The position numbers and the translations under genes are program-made. From Clostridia bacterium (lineage in GTDB: Bacteria; Bacillota; Clostridia; Oscillospirales; CAG-272): 64,000 bases of DNA. Position 1 is the stretch's first letter. Each line of letters opens with the position of its first letter. The notes under the pieces were generated by a model, which was not told where the DNA came from, did no database searches, and saw only the letters and a list, made by a program, of their open reading frames with translations. This document shows positions 34,607-38,799 of the stretch, in pieces. The stretch is from contig JAFTKN010000010.1 in NCBI GenBank assembly GCA_017453255.1, positions 214,458-278,457 of the forward strand, given 5' to 3'.

Positions 34607-34637
34607 GCAAAAAGACCGTTTTTGCAAACGGTCTTTA
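34607..34637 (-). terminator. Intrinsic terminator of mgtE
   Basis: Stem AAAGACCGTTT/AAACGGTCTTT (34611-34621 and 34626-34636) with a 4-nt loop; the plus-strand A-run on the left is the T-run on minus. Confidence 0.9.
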
Positions 34638-36047
34638 GATTAATAAAAATAGAGAAGCAGTGCCGATATAAATTAATAAAGATAGCACATCGACAACAGT
34701 AGTGATTAAAGGGCTTGCCATAACGGCAGGATCAAGTTTGACTTTTTTTGCAAAGATCGGTAGCAAGCAACCAATTAATTTTGCAGAAATTATAGTTAAC
34801 AGAATTGTCAAACTAACAACGCAAGCTATTCTAATCACATTAGGATCAAAATAAAGAATATCTACGTTATTAGGGTAAAAAGGCGTAAAAATATTTAATA
34901 ATTTGTAATCAATAAACAAAATTTTTACGAATGTAGCTAAGGCAAGTGTAGTCCCACACAAAAACGAAACACGTGCCTCTTTTAAAATAATTTTAAATAC
35001 ATCCGAAACACGTATTTCATCAATTGCTAAACCACGTATTATTGTAACTGATGTTTGACCACCTGCATTACCTCCCGAACCCATAATCATTGGAATAAAG
35101 GCATTAAGAACTATGCATGCAGCTAATTTATCATCAAATGAAGAAATTATTGTACTGGTAAATGTTGCAGAAAGCATAAGAATTATCAGCCATGGGATAC
35201 GATTTCTCCATATATCAAAGACACTTGTTTGAAGATATGGTTTATCGGAAGGTGTCATAGCAGCCATTTTTTCAATATCCTCGGTTGCTTCTTCTTCCAT
35301 TACATCTATTGCATCGTCAACAGTTACAATACCAACTAATCTGTTTTCGTTATCAACAACAGGAAGAGCTAAAAGGTCATACTTGCTCATTTCGAGCGCA
35401 ACAAATTCTTTATCTTCGTGCGTATGAACAAAAATAATATTTTTGTCCATTATATCAGATATAATAGTTTCGTCATCAGCAAGCAGAAGTTGCTTGGCGG
35501 TTACATATCCGAGAAGGGTTCTATCCTGAGAAGTGACATAGCAGGTGTAAATGGTTTCCTTATCAAGACCTGTACGTCTAATACGCTTTAGAGCATCTTC
35601 AACAGTAATATTCTCATCAAGATGCACATATTCTGTTGTCATGATACTTCCAGCAGATTCATCAGGATACTTTAAAATTTCATTAATTATTTTTCTTGTT
35701 TCGGGATCAGAATTGTAAAGAATACGCTTAACGACATTTGCGGGCATTTCTTCAATTATATCAACAGTATCGTCAATATATAATTCGTCCATTACCTCTT
35801 TAATCTCATTATCGGTAAACGAGGAAAGTAGCTCTTCCTGGTTTTCTGATTCCATTTCAACAAAGCATTCTGCAGCAAGATCTTTAGGTAAAAGCCTAAA
35901 TAATGTACCAATTTTTTTGGGAAATTCCTCTAAGATAATAGAAAGATCAGCTGGTTCTAAATCCTTTAACAGAAGCTTTATAGCATAATAATCATGATTT
36001 TCGATTAAAATATCTAATTCTTCAATGATTTCTTTTAATTCATCCAT
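34635..36047 (-). CDS. mgtE: Magnesium transporter MgtE
   Basis: Mg2+-gated Mg2+ channel. The 470-residue protein has a helical N domain (about 1-130), two CBS domains (about 135-255; MTTEYVHLDENITVEDAL and MDKNIIFVHTHEDKEFVA), a connecting helix and five C-terminal membrane segments. The pore signature is MGSGGNAGGQTSVTIIRG. In the family, the N and CBS domains sense cytosolic Mg2+ and close the pore. SD AAAGGAGG precedes the ATG. A structured leader and a short leader ORF lie upstream (36048-36188), and a clear promoter at 36195-36222. Confidence 0.97.
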   Translation of the reverse strand: MDELKEIIEELDILIENHDYYAIKLLLKDLEPADLSIILEEFPKKIGTLFRLLPKDLAAECFVEMESENQEELLSSFTDNEIKEVMDELYIDDTVDIIEEMPANVVKRILYNSDPETRKIINEILKYPDESAGSIMTTEYVHLDENITVEDALKRIRRTGLDKETIYTCYVTSQDRTLLGYVTAKQLLLADDETIISDIMDKNIIFVHTHEDKEFVALEMSKYDLLALPVVDNENRLVGIVTVDDAIDVMEEEATEDIEKMAAMTPSDKPYLQTSVFDIWRNRIPWLIILMLSATFTSTIISSFDDKLAACIVLNAFIPMIMGSGGNAGGQTSVTIIRGLAIDEIRVSDVFKIILKEARVSFLCGTTLALATFVKILFIDYKLLNIFTPFYPNNVDILYFDPNVIRIACVVSLTILLTIISAKLIGCLLPIFAKKVKLDPAVMASPLITTVVDVLSLLIYIGTASLFLLI

Positions 36048-36188
36048 GTTTATACCTCCTTTAAATTAGAAGGGAAAACATAATATTATAAATGCTTGTC
36101 TTGTAACACAAGCAAATTCAATATTATGCACCCTCGTGGAACAGTATTATTGCTTGTGTCCATAAACATTTCCTCCAAAACAATTTCA
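36048..36188 (-). promoter_or_regulatory. mgtE leader RNA with mutually exclusive hairpins
   Basis: In minus-strand order, ACACAAGCAA (36159-36150) can pair over 10 perfect bp with TTGCTTGTGT (36115-36106). The same later segment can instead pair through TGCTTGT (36114-36108) with ACAAGCA (36099-36093), in a hairpin extended by CATAATATT (36128-36120) with AATATTATG (36087-36079). The two folds cannot coexist. I do not recognise the conserved M-box (ykoK) core. Only a short TTTT follows the second hairpin, so transcription termination is uncertain. Confidence 0.65.
36086..36163 (-). CDS. 25-residue leader ORF upstream of mgtE
   Basis: ATG at 36163 (minus) is preceded by GGAGG (36176-36172) at an ideal 8-nt distance. 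It encodes MDTSNNTVPRGCIILNLLVL plus QDKHL, then TAA. The start codons cover the 5' arm of the first hairpin and the stop lies within the second, so ribosome movement would decide which fold forms. The stop is 38 nt before the mgtE start. It could be a regulatory leader peptide like MgtL of Salmonella mgtA, with which I see no sequence similarity beyond a proline. Coding is inferred from the ribosome site and position only. Confidence 0.5.
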   Translation of the reverse strand: MDTSNNTVPRGCIILNLLVLQDKHL

Positions 36189-36194
36189 TATTAT

Positions 36195-36222
36195 ATTATA
36201 ACACTTTTTTAAAAAAAATCAA
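36195..36222 (-). promoter_or_regulatory. Promoter of mgtE
   Basis: On the minus strand TTGATT (36222-36217), 16 nt, TATAAT (36200-36195), about 12 nt before the leader described here. Confidence 0.75.
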
Positions 36223-36340
36223 TAGTTTTAATTGAGCTTAATTTATATGCTTAAAATAAAATTAATTATTCAGCAAAACATGAATAAATTCGTCTTATTT
36301 TAAAGGAATTTTCATAAAATATTGTAAGTGAGGTGTATAT

Positions 36341-36613
36341 ATGAAAAAAAGTTTTGGACATATGATTGCAGACAAATTTGATATACCAATTGAAGGGATA
36401 AAAACGATGCCGTGCGCACAATTTATTGGGAATACAATGCTTAATATTGATGGCTGTATGGGAATAAAAAAATACGAAAACGAAGAAATTATTATTCGCA
36501 CACAAACTTATTTGTTAACGATAGTAGGTCAGTCGCTTTCTATGCTTATGTTTTCCGAAGGAAGAGTTTCTATAAGAGGAGAAATATTCTGTTATAGAAT
36601 AAGCGAGTTATAA
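36341..36613 (+). CDS. yqfC: Sporulation protein YqfC
   Basis: A 90-residue YabP/YqfC-family protein (SFGHMIADKFDIPIEGIKTMP at the start; VSIRGEIFCYRISEL at the end). In Bacillus it is made in the mother cell under sigma-E and is linked to the SpoIIIA-SpoIIQ channel period together with YqfD. SD GTGAGGTG precedes the ATG. yqfD follows with no gap. The 5' region 36223-36340 is AT-rich, and I do not find a convincing sigma-E promoter by eye. Confidence 0.92.
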   Translation: MKKSFGHMIADKFDIPIEGIKTMPCAQFIGNTMLNIDGCMGIKKYENEEIIIRTQTYLLTIVGQSLSMLMFSEGRVSIRGEIFCYRISEL

Positions 36614-37786
36614 ATGAAAAAAATACTAAGAAATCATGCAATTATTGAAATATATTTTTTAAACAAGGCTGTTTTACTTTCAATTTTGCTCGAGAATAAA
36701 TTTTCATATTATAAGATCGAGTTTAATGAAAATAACATAAATCTATTTGTTCCTTTGAATAAAGCAGATAAACTGGTAAAATGCTTAAAAAACAATGGTA
36801 TAGAAGCTAAAATTATCGAAAGAAAGGGAATGATTGCTCAGTTAAACAAAATAAAAAAAAGACCTGGTATTTTAGTTGGGTTATTATTAATGTTGGTTTT
36901 AACCTTTTTTTCTTCAAATATTGTATGGTCAATAGAGATTAGTGGAAATGAAAAAATTCCTAAAGAGAAAATTTTAGAAGCATTAAATGAGGCGGGATTA
37001 GAATTAGGTTCATTTATTCCAAATATTGATTATGATAAGTTACATAATAATGTTTTAATAAATCTAAAGGAAATTTCTTGGTTATCGGTAAATATTGATG
37101 GGAATAAAGCGAAAGTAATAGTTGAAGAAACAAAAAAATCGGAAAATAATAGTTTACCAACATATTCAAATATTATTGCTTCTTCAGATGCTCAAATTTA
37201 CTCAGTAATAGTGTCAAATGGTGAAAAAATTGTTAACATTGGTGATACAGTAAAAAAAGGAGATTTGTTAGTTTCGGGTGTTTTAGATTCACAGTCATTA
37301 GGTGTGAGATACGTTGAATCAGAAGCCAAGATAATAGGTTATGTTAATAAAAAAATCGAGGTTAAGCTACCCATTAAAACTATCAAAAAAAAATATACTG
37401 GTAATGAAAGAATTGAAATTGTATATAAATTATTTAATAATATAAGCTTTTTTTCATTTAACTATGGAAATTTACCATCAAATTATGATACAATAATTAA
37501 AGAAGAAAACACAGGTTTTTTCGGGATAACAAATATACCTTATAAAAAAACAATTACTAAATATTTAGAGTATTGTGAAGAAGAGTATGAATACTCCATA
37601 AAAGAAGCGGTTGATGTGGCATTTTTAGAATTACGCGAAAAACTCGATATTTGTTTGGAGAATGCAGAATTAATAACTAAAAACGTTGAAACACACTATG
37701 ATGGAGAGAACTTTTATATTTTTTGTGACATTTATTGCCTTGAGGATATTTGCGAGAATAAAACAATACAAGTTAATTCTGATTAG
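36614..37786 (+). CDS. yqfD: Sporulation protein YqfD
   Basis: A 390-residue membrane protein of the YqfD (SpoIV-type) family. One strong hydrophobic segment at about residues 87-110 (PGILVGLLLMLVLTFFSS) is followed by WSIEISGNEKIPKEKILEAL, a POTRA-like fold as in the family. Then WLSVNIDGNKAKVIVEE and a late mostly beta region. It starts right after yqfC, whose stop (36611-36613) leads directly into its ATG. The phoH gene follows after 8 nt, the standard Firmicutes order. Confidence 0.92.
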   Translation: MKKILRNHAIIEIYFLNKAVLLSILLENKFSYYKIEFNENNINLFVPLNKADKLVKCLKNNGIEAKIIERKGMIAQLNKIKKRPGILVGLLLMLVLTFFSSNIVWSIEISGNEKIPKEKILEALNEAGLELGSFIPNIDYDKLHNNVLINLKEISWLSVNIDGNKAKVIVEETKKSENNSLPTYSNIIASSDAQIYSVIVSNGEKIVNIGDTVKKGDLLVSGVLDSQSLGVRYVESEAKIIGYVNKKIEVKLPIKTIKKKYTGNERIEIVYKLFNNISFFSFNYGNLPSNYDTIIKEENTGFFGITNIPYKKTITKYLEYCEEEYEYSIKEAVDVAFLELREKLDICLENAELITKNVETHYDGENFYIFCDIYCLEDICENKTIQVNSD

Positions 37787-37794
37787 GAGCTACT

Positions 37795-38799
37795 ATGTTT
37801 GAAAAGACTTTGAGCACTTCATCACCGAGTGTTACTAGTTTAATTTTTGGTGCATTTGATGCAAATACAGTTTCTTTGGAAAATGCTTATTCAGTTAAAA
37901 TTGTAAATCGTCCCCTAAATAACGAATTAGGTGACTTGATTACAATTTCTGGAGAAGAAGATAACGTTAACAAAGTGTATGAAGCACTTGTGTACTTGAA
38001 GAAAATGGCTGAAATGAATAGCGTTATTTCTGAGCAAACTGTTGACTATGTGATTTCAATGGTTAATGAGAGCAGAACTAATGAATTAAACGAAATAGAC
38101 GATAATTGTTTTTGCGTTACTTTTAAAGGAAAACCAATTAAATCTAAAACAATTGGGCAACAAAAATATATCAATTCAATAAAAAATAACACAGTAACGT
38201 TTGGGGCTGGACCAGCTGGAACAGGAAAAACATTTTTGGCAGTAGCGATGGCAGTCAAATGCTTACGTGATAAGAAAGTTAATAGAATTGTACTTACGAG
38301 ACCCGCTGTTGAAGCTGGTGAAAGATTAGGTTTTTTACCTGGCGACTTACAGAGTAAAATTGATCCATATTTAAGGCCACTATACGACTCGCTTTATGAA
38401 ATGTTAGGGCCAGAAAACTGTGCAAGATACATGGAAAAACAAATAATTGAAATTGCGCCACTTGCATATATGCGAGGAAGGACATTGGATGATTCATTTA
38501 TTATTTTAGACGAAGCTCAAAACACAACCTCTGAACAGATGAAAATGTTCTTAACAAGAATTGGTTTTAATTCAAAGGTTGTTGTTACTGGTGATTTATC
38601 ACAAATCGACTTACCTGAAGGAAAGAAAAGTGGTCTTGTTGAAGCAGTTGAAATATTGAAAAATATTGATGATATTGCTATTCATAGATTTACTGAAAAA
38701 GATGTTGTTCGTCATAGATTAGTTCAAAAAATAATAGTTGCATATGACGATTATGAACAAAATAAAAACAAAAGATATGAAAAGGAAAGAAGAAAATGA
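37795..38799 (+). CDS. phoH: PhoH-family P-loop ATPase
   Basis: Cytoplasmic ATPase of 334 residues with an N-terminal KH-like part and the PhoH domain: FGAGPAGTGKTFLAVAMA Walker A (about 139-156), LTRPAVEAGERLGFLPGDL, and Walker B FIILDEAQNTTSEQ. The family is tied to RNA metabolism by its constant neighbour ybeY, whose start overlaps here by 4 nt. The exact function is not settled in any organism. yqfF (an HD hydrolase), often between phoH and ybeY, is absent. Confidence 0.94.
   Translation: MFEKTLSTSSPSVTSLIFGAFDANTVSLENAYSVKIVNRPLNNELGDLITISGEEDNVNKVYEALVYLKKMAEMNSVISEQTVDYVISMVNESRTNELNEIDDNCFCVTFKGKPIKSKTIGQQKYINSIKNNTVTFGAGPAGTGKTFLAVAMAVKCLRDKKVNRIVLTRPAVEAGERLGFLPGDLQSKIDPYLRPLYDSLYEMLGPENCARYMEKQIIEIAPLAYMRGRTLDDSFIILDEAQNTTSEQMKMFLTRIGFNSKVVVTGDLSQIDLPEGKKSGLVEAVEILKNIDDIAIHRFTEKDVVRHRLVQKIIVAYDDYEQNKNKRYEKERRK

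Follow-up and report, generated by a model that had tools for sequence, protein, structure and literature searches.

What controls the Mg2+ channel gene mgtE in a clostridial genome where its short leader can adopt two mutually exclusive hairpins? The case comes from a stretch of 64,000 nt (here called the window) of Clostridia bacterium (CAG-272; assembly GCA_017453255.1, contig JAFTKN010000010.1, positions 214,458–278,457), for which the original prediction proposed a compact, switch-like control element in front of mgtE. The compact switch is retained here, but a ligand-sensing RNA is not supported: because the pairing arms lie inside a conserved upstream open reading frame (uORF), sensing probably falls to the translating ribosome. 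The element is quite probably a uORF-driven translational attenuator of mgtE, ribosomes reading the leader peptide probably deciding whether the channel is made.

A leader peptide upstream of mgtE

The following features, all on the minus strand, define the locus and its uORF.

34635–36047, minus strand: mgtE, Mg2+ channel (Pfam: MgtE_N, a pair of CBS domains, MgtE membrane domain)
36055–36060, minus strand: mgtE Shine-Dalgarno (SD) AGGAGG, supported by sequestrator permutation tests within and outside the genus
36086–36163, minus strand: uORF encoding leader peptide MDTSNNTVPRGCIILNLLVLQDKHL; stop TAA at 36088–36086; start, Asp2 and P-R(CGA)-G conserved in the genus
36131–36136, minus strand: CGAGGG (Arg CGA and Gly GGG), SD-like tract pairing with the anti-SD at 36074–36070; supported by codon conservation and a pairing test (32/5000)
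36137–36139, minus strand: conserved Pro codon CCN (CCA, CCC, CCG or CCT, always Pro, among 15 leaders)
36172–36176, minus strand: uORF SD GGAGG, read directly; an SD also precedes every listed same-genus uORF
36195–36222, minus strand: promoter, TTGATT (36222–36217), 16 nt, TATAAT (36200–36195)

With this promoter, the mgtE transcript is expected to start near 36188, and its leader extends to 36048. The region that follows had been treated as a non-coding leader, which overlooked an SD-preceded ORF of 25 codons: the minus strand reads ...GGAGGAAATGTTT-ATG GAC ACA AGC AAT AAT ACT GTT CCA CGA GGG TGC..., so that the peptide begins MDTSNNTVPRG, with an acidic residue at position 2 and no D/E-P repeat of the destabilising EPDP kind. 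The divergent neighbours of mgtE (36341–38799, plus strand) are a YabP-family gene, YqfD and a PhoH-like gene, which places the mgtE promoter in an intergenic region common with a sporulation-related cluster.

Searches for similar leader DNA across the family returned only AT-rich or promoter-like partial matches; since the leader diverges too fast, the comparison was made through mgtE orthologs. Within the genus there are 16 of these, 69–100% identical, and an SD-preceded uORF is found in all 15 leaders with full upstream DNA (for example MDTSSSTKPRGC, MDAGNVTNPRGC and MDASAKSKPRSC). For the sixteenth ortholog (L005), a contig end interrupts the locus, and a different contig from that genome carries the uORF MDASSLSVPRGC at its end. 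A promoter of the form TTG(A/C)-16/17-TATAAT lies 28–37 nt 5' of the uORF start in 14 of the 15. Proline occupies the PR site in 15/15 leaders, with all four synonymous codons in use, and the Arg codon is CGA in 15/15, although CGA makes up 9% of the Arg codons of the window; the Gly codon is GGG in 13/15, against 6% of the Gly codons of the window. Asp2 is present in 12/15 (the exceptions being L003, L011 and L015), and a second acidic residue near position 5–6 is limited to L011, L015 and L016 among the genus leaders. Two leaders (L012 and L014) are ~100 nt longer and have an inserted region before mgtE, and their uORF motif is CGA AGT instead of CGA GGG, like that of other families. Three genus genomes (G009, G007 and G019) yielded only distant MgtE proteins of 27–29% identity (L017, L018 and L019, respectively), and the PR-motif uORF was not found before these paralogs.

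Exclusive helices overlapping the uORF

The arms of the alternative helices, and the tract that links them to the mgtE SD, are as follows.

36150–36159, minus strand: arm A, ACACAAGCAA (uORF codons 2–5), pairs with arm B; permutation test 0/2000 and compensatory pair types
36120–36128, minus strand: outer 5' arm of the long hairpin, CATAATATT; outer-helix permutation test 0/5000
36106–36115, minus strand: arm B, TTGCTTGTGT, common to A:B and B:C; permutation tests
36093–36099, minus strand: arm C, ACAAGCA; long-hairpin test without CGAGGG 0/5000
36079–36087, minus strand: outer 3' arm of the long hairpin, AATATTATG; permutation test and folding against shuffles
36068–36074, minus strand: anti-SD pyrimidine tract CCCTTCT, pairing with GAGGG (open) or the mgtE SD (closed)

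Arms A, B and C are all inside the uORF. The pairings put forward for this leader, in which 36106–36115 joins either 36150–36159 or 36093–36099 and the longer hairpin is closed by 9 bp, all exist on the minus strand and beat shuffled sequence. In A:B, 10 bp form between ACACAAGCAA (36159–36150) and TTGCTTGTGT (36115–36106), and the hairpin reaches −16.8 kcal/mol, compared to −9.0 kcal/mol in shuffles (1/200; all energies from ViennaRNA, which treats neither Mg2+ nor kinetics explicitly). In the alternative, TGCTTGT (36114–36108) pairs with ACAAGCA (36099–36093) inside a 9-bp outer helix of CATAATATT (36128–36120) and AATATTATG (36087–36079), and the long hairpin spanning 36135–36069 attains −26.2 kcal/mol, compared to −9.5 kcal/mol in shuffles (z −6.2, 0/200).

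The mgtE ribosome site, described earlier as not obviously sequestered, can in fact be masked: CCTTCT (36073–36068) can form 6 bp with the SD AGGAGG (36060–36055). At the foot of the long hairpin, the same tract (CCCTTCT, 36074–36068) alternatively pairs with GAGGG of the uORF (36135–36131), and this choice of partners largely resolves a mechanism that had been called unclear. Taken alone, the SD stem of the window leader is weak and no better than shuffled sequence (−5.1 kcal/mol, z −0.44), so that the support for its sequestration is comparative.

Conservation and covariation of the three arms in relatives, proposed in the original prediction as a check, are borne out by permutation tests, in which each leader's own arms were compared with arms swapped between leaders (a design that does not fully remove shared ancestry), and by tables of pair types. 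Within the genus, A:B averages −14.65 kcal/mol, versus −11.94 kcal/mol for swapped arms (0/2000; 2/2000 after removal of near-duplicates), and a control pairing gives 780/2000. The long hairpin averages −24.5 versus −16.2 kcal/mol (0/5000, and still 0/5000 without CGAGGG); the outer helix and the SD sequestrator each give 0/5000, and GAGGG with the anti-SD gives 32/5000. The pair-type tables contain two-sided changes: one A:B position, for example, is C-G, U-G or U-A depending on the leader. Matching of the sequestrator is seen again (0/5000) in 43 leaders from outside the genus, where the initial 57 nt of the uORF also match the segment before the SD (0/5000), compared to 2377/5000 for a control segment.

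Comparison of sequences thus establishes the uORF, the helices and their mutual exclusivity. Two hallmarks of a uORF attenuator are found here: a conserved, SD-preceded leader ORF, and exclusive helices that overlap it, one of which controls the SD of the target gene. A third, dependence of expression on uORF translation, is predicted by modelling.

uORFs and the M-box across Clostridia

Leaders outside the genus were taken from orthologs of the same GTDB-level family and of other Clostridia. About 50 further clostridial mgtE genes carry related uORFs (MD-A/T-G-S...PGGR/PRS), of which MDAGNSGSFKPGGR and MDAGSNGIKPRS are typical. Among 170 usable leaders, the second residue is acidic in 63/135 (47%) of the SD-preceded uORFs before mgtE versus 38/592 (6%) of control small SD-preceded ORFs elsewhere at the same loci, the former count including four false positives of the automatic uORF list (L079, L130, L133 and L210) that were excluded from the pairing tests. 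Two codons are locked to the frame of the outside-genus uORFs, AGT occurring 71 times in frame versus 3 and 3 times in the other frames, and CGA 56 times versus 21 and 18; both are strongly favoured there, AGT, a rare Ser codon in the downstream genes, at 51% versus 7% in mgtE genes, and CGA at 54% versus 4%. This frame-locking implies that the uORF is translated.

Sought genome-wide, the uORF pattern occurred 9 times across 29 genomes of the genus, 7 times across 98 of the family and 4 times across 243 of the class, and a reversed control pattern gave none in the same three sets; 19 of the 20 matches lead into mgtE, and the remaining one runs off its contig. A stricter, order-wide pattern returned a single match that looked unrelated, its SD requirement being so strict that it missed the window's own uORF. 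The 19 matches before mgtE include L230 and L231, which have a second acidic uORF, and L225 (G082 contig C9, position 307), where the same kind of uORF precedes a gene for an MgtE that is devoid of the CBS domains and of most of the N domain.

The M-box (RF00380), which also controls mgtE, is present in 19 ortholog leaders, including those of Oscillibacter relatives (five confirmed by Rfam RF00380, the rest by a profile built from those five), whereas its aptamer is absent from the window leader. M-box and uORF never coincide: no leader has both, with 19 and 70 of the 170 carrying one or the other (hypergeometric P ~2e-5, a value that ignores shared ancestry and counts the same four false positives among the 70).

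Ribosome position, signal and related systems

In the closed state of the proposed switch, arm A would pair with B and the pyrimidine tract with the mgtE SD. A ribosome that lingers on the first ~5 codons would cover A and leave CGAGGG exposed, upon which the long hairpin (GAGGG–outer–B:C–outer–CCCTT) could form, capture the pyrimidine tract and free the mgtE SD; by advancing to the PRG codons, the ribosome would cover GAGGG and the switch would reclose. A terminating ribosome should likewise disfavour the long hairpin, because the uORF stop is near its 3' arm, 9–25 nt 5' of the anti-SD stem. The likely signal would be low Mg2+, felt as elongation that is slowed or destabilised early on, over the acidic N-terminus, in the way shown for Salmonella MgtQ; both the ion and the direction of the response are inferred.

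When the ribosome footprint is blocked and the folding ensemble recomputed, SD opening in the genus leaders is predicted to depend on ribosome position: mean accessibility is 0.37 with the P site five codons before CGA, compared to 0.06 without a ribosome, ~0.05 at PRG and at most ~0.12 further on. The open fraction computed for the window itself is modest (0.29 at codon 5, 0.13 without a ribosome and 0.00 at PRG). Shuffling the middle of the leader flattens accessibility to ~0.07; chimeric leaders between members keep the same profile, which therefore stems from motifs that the leaders have in common and is no evidence specific to any one of them. Leaders from beyond the genus give a mixed rather than uniform profile, so that only the helices and the uORF are generalised to them, not the detailed logic. 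The open-state model does not need the conserved Pro-Arg, and pairing of Pro-Arg(CGA) with the anti-SD tentatively explains part of its role; the frame-locked AGT is also partly explained by such pairing.

The same attenuator might answer to a signal other than Mg2+, such as charged tRNA (Arg, Pro or Asp), EF-P/ABC-F activity or general translation stress, with a pause at PRG/CGA as the sensing step. Proline and the rare CGA at a fixed PR site in all 15 genus leaders would suit this view, as would mgtM and mgtP of the Salmonella mgtCBR leader, which respond to ATP and charged tRNA-Pro; it is nevertheless unlikely, considering that mgtE accompanies the uORF in every match checked, that the uORF replaces the Mg2+-responsive M-box among orthologs, and that the SD is computed to close when the ribosome stands at PRG. 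Transcription attenuation, with the long hairpin as a terminator under the control of uORF translation, appears improbable. Although the B:C hairpin was flagged in a terminator scan and MgtL works at the level of transcription via Rho, downstream of the full hairpin come TTTTCCC and the anti-SD; in view of this missing U-run the terminator reading was rejected, and the fact that the long hairpin and the SD sequestrator compete for one tract fits translational control.

A metal-binding riboswitch with an open frame running across its core by coincidence is very doubtful, despite the strong conserved structure and some conservation at the nucleotide level (CGAGGG, GGHAGT). The original prediction held that the leader does not look like an M-box and suggested a search with Rfam models of this and other metal riboswitches. 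No known riboswitch model matched: no Rfam family, RF00380 included, scores up to its gathering cutoff anywhere in the 64-kb window, and among matches with E<=10 in 35950–36300 RF00380 is absent and the best sub-threshold one is rli31, at 22.9 bits (cutoff 80). Moreover, the transcript 5' of the uORF is only ~25 nt long, the conserved nucleotides are largely accounted for by anti-SD pairing, and the frame-locked AGT and CGA codons, together with synonymous changes in the codons for Pro and Asp, point to translation. That the arms are chance or generic stems and the uORF spurious is hardly credible, for even though the leader is AT-rich, exact helices of this length arise often and the SD stem in isolation does not exceed shuffles, all comparative tests (uORF conservation, codon frame, permutation and pair types) contradict it.

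The favoured translational attenuator of mgtE resembles in its logic those of the ermC type, in which a ribosome held on a leader ORF frees a sequestered SD and the inducer is an antibiotic. A closer parallel is Salmonella mgtQ in the mgtCBRU operon, where regions 1:2 and 3:4, the latter containing the mgtB ribosome-binding site (RBS), alternate with 2:3, which leaves the RBS free; the RBS becomes accessible once a ribosome occupies region 1, and Asp2 and Glu5 are required by experiment (PMC8092293). Both systems have a short uORF with an acidic second codon before a Mg2+ transporter and act on translation, and A:B plus anti-SD:SD versus the long hairpin matches the 1:2 plus 3:4(RBS) versus 2:3 architecture. 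However, mgtQ, reported from Enterobacterales, has 8 codons and lies between mgtC and mgtB (PMC8092293), whereas the uORF described here, likened to it by architecture, has 23–31 codons and an additional PRG/CGA motif that doubles as an SD-like pairing tract. The window element works like mgtQ but is not filed as a member, because it belongs to Clostridia and forms part of the 5' leader of mgtE, an unrelated channel gene; leader peptide, phylum and transporter all differ.

Another structured element before mgtE that involves its SD, the mgtE motif SRC-65-1, is reported only from Thioalkalivibrio and is set apart by its description as a riboswitch candidate rather than a uORF (PMC11109978). No earlier report of a clostridial mgtE uORF was found in the open-access literature, most subscription papers being outside the scope of the search. 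We consider it reasonably likely that a hitherto undescribed family of leader peptides that respond to Mg2+ (MD-A/T-G-S...P-G/R-R-S/G, with AGU and CGA locked in frame) controls mgtE across several clostridial families, substitutes for the M-box among orthologs and is convergent with Salmonella mgtQ. Sensing of Mg2+ by a ribosome on a leader peptide is already known from Enterobacteria; if confirmed, it would also have arisen in Gram-positive Clostridia, on a different transporter family, with leader peptide and M-box replacing each other on the same gene. This swap would make riboswitch- and ribosome-based sensing of one ion directly testable against each other, and the element could serve as a simple RNA-based readout of Mg2+ or of the state of translation. 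For work on ribosome pausing, the frame-locked CGA and AGU codons pose a concrete puzzle.

MgtL, the leader of mgtA in E. coli and Salmonella, senses Mg2+ by ribosome drop-off on its acidic N-terminus and acts through Rho-dependent termination (PMC11282234). The peptides described here share with it an acidic N-terminus before a Mg2+ importer, destabilisation of the ribosome at low Mg2+ being the MgtL feature (PMC11282234), but they mostly carry one acidic residue in place of the EPDP-type motif of MgtL, which the window peptide lacks. Other acidic leader ORFs were also observed before mgtE. Within the 0–550 nt 5' of the gene, L230 and L231 each have two acidic uORFs, the first beginning MESGSS(N/S)ID... 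and the second, directly before the mgtE SD, reading MDSGPLPGYFSAKK... and MDPVPLPVNFGKN..., respectively. The mgtE leaders L116, L119 and L122 contain uORFs that are both acidic and Pro-rich (MEPGSTCSPEPDGRRRYILKY, MESRSRKTEADAHPEP... and MEGRSRKMEADAHPEP...), the first of which resembles enterobacterial MgtL in style.
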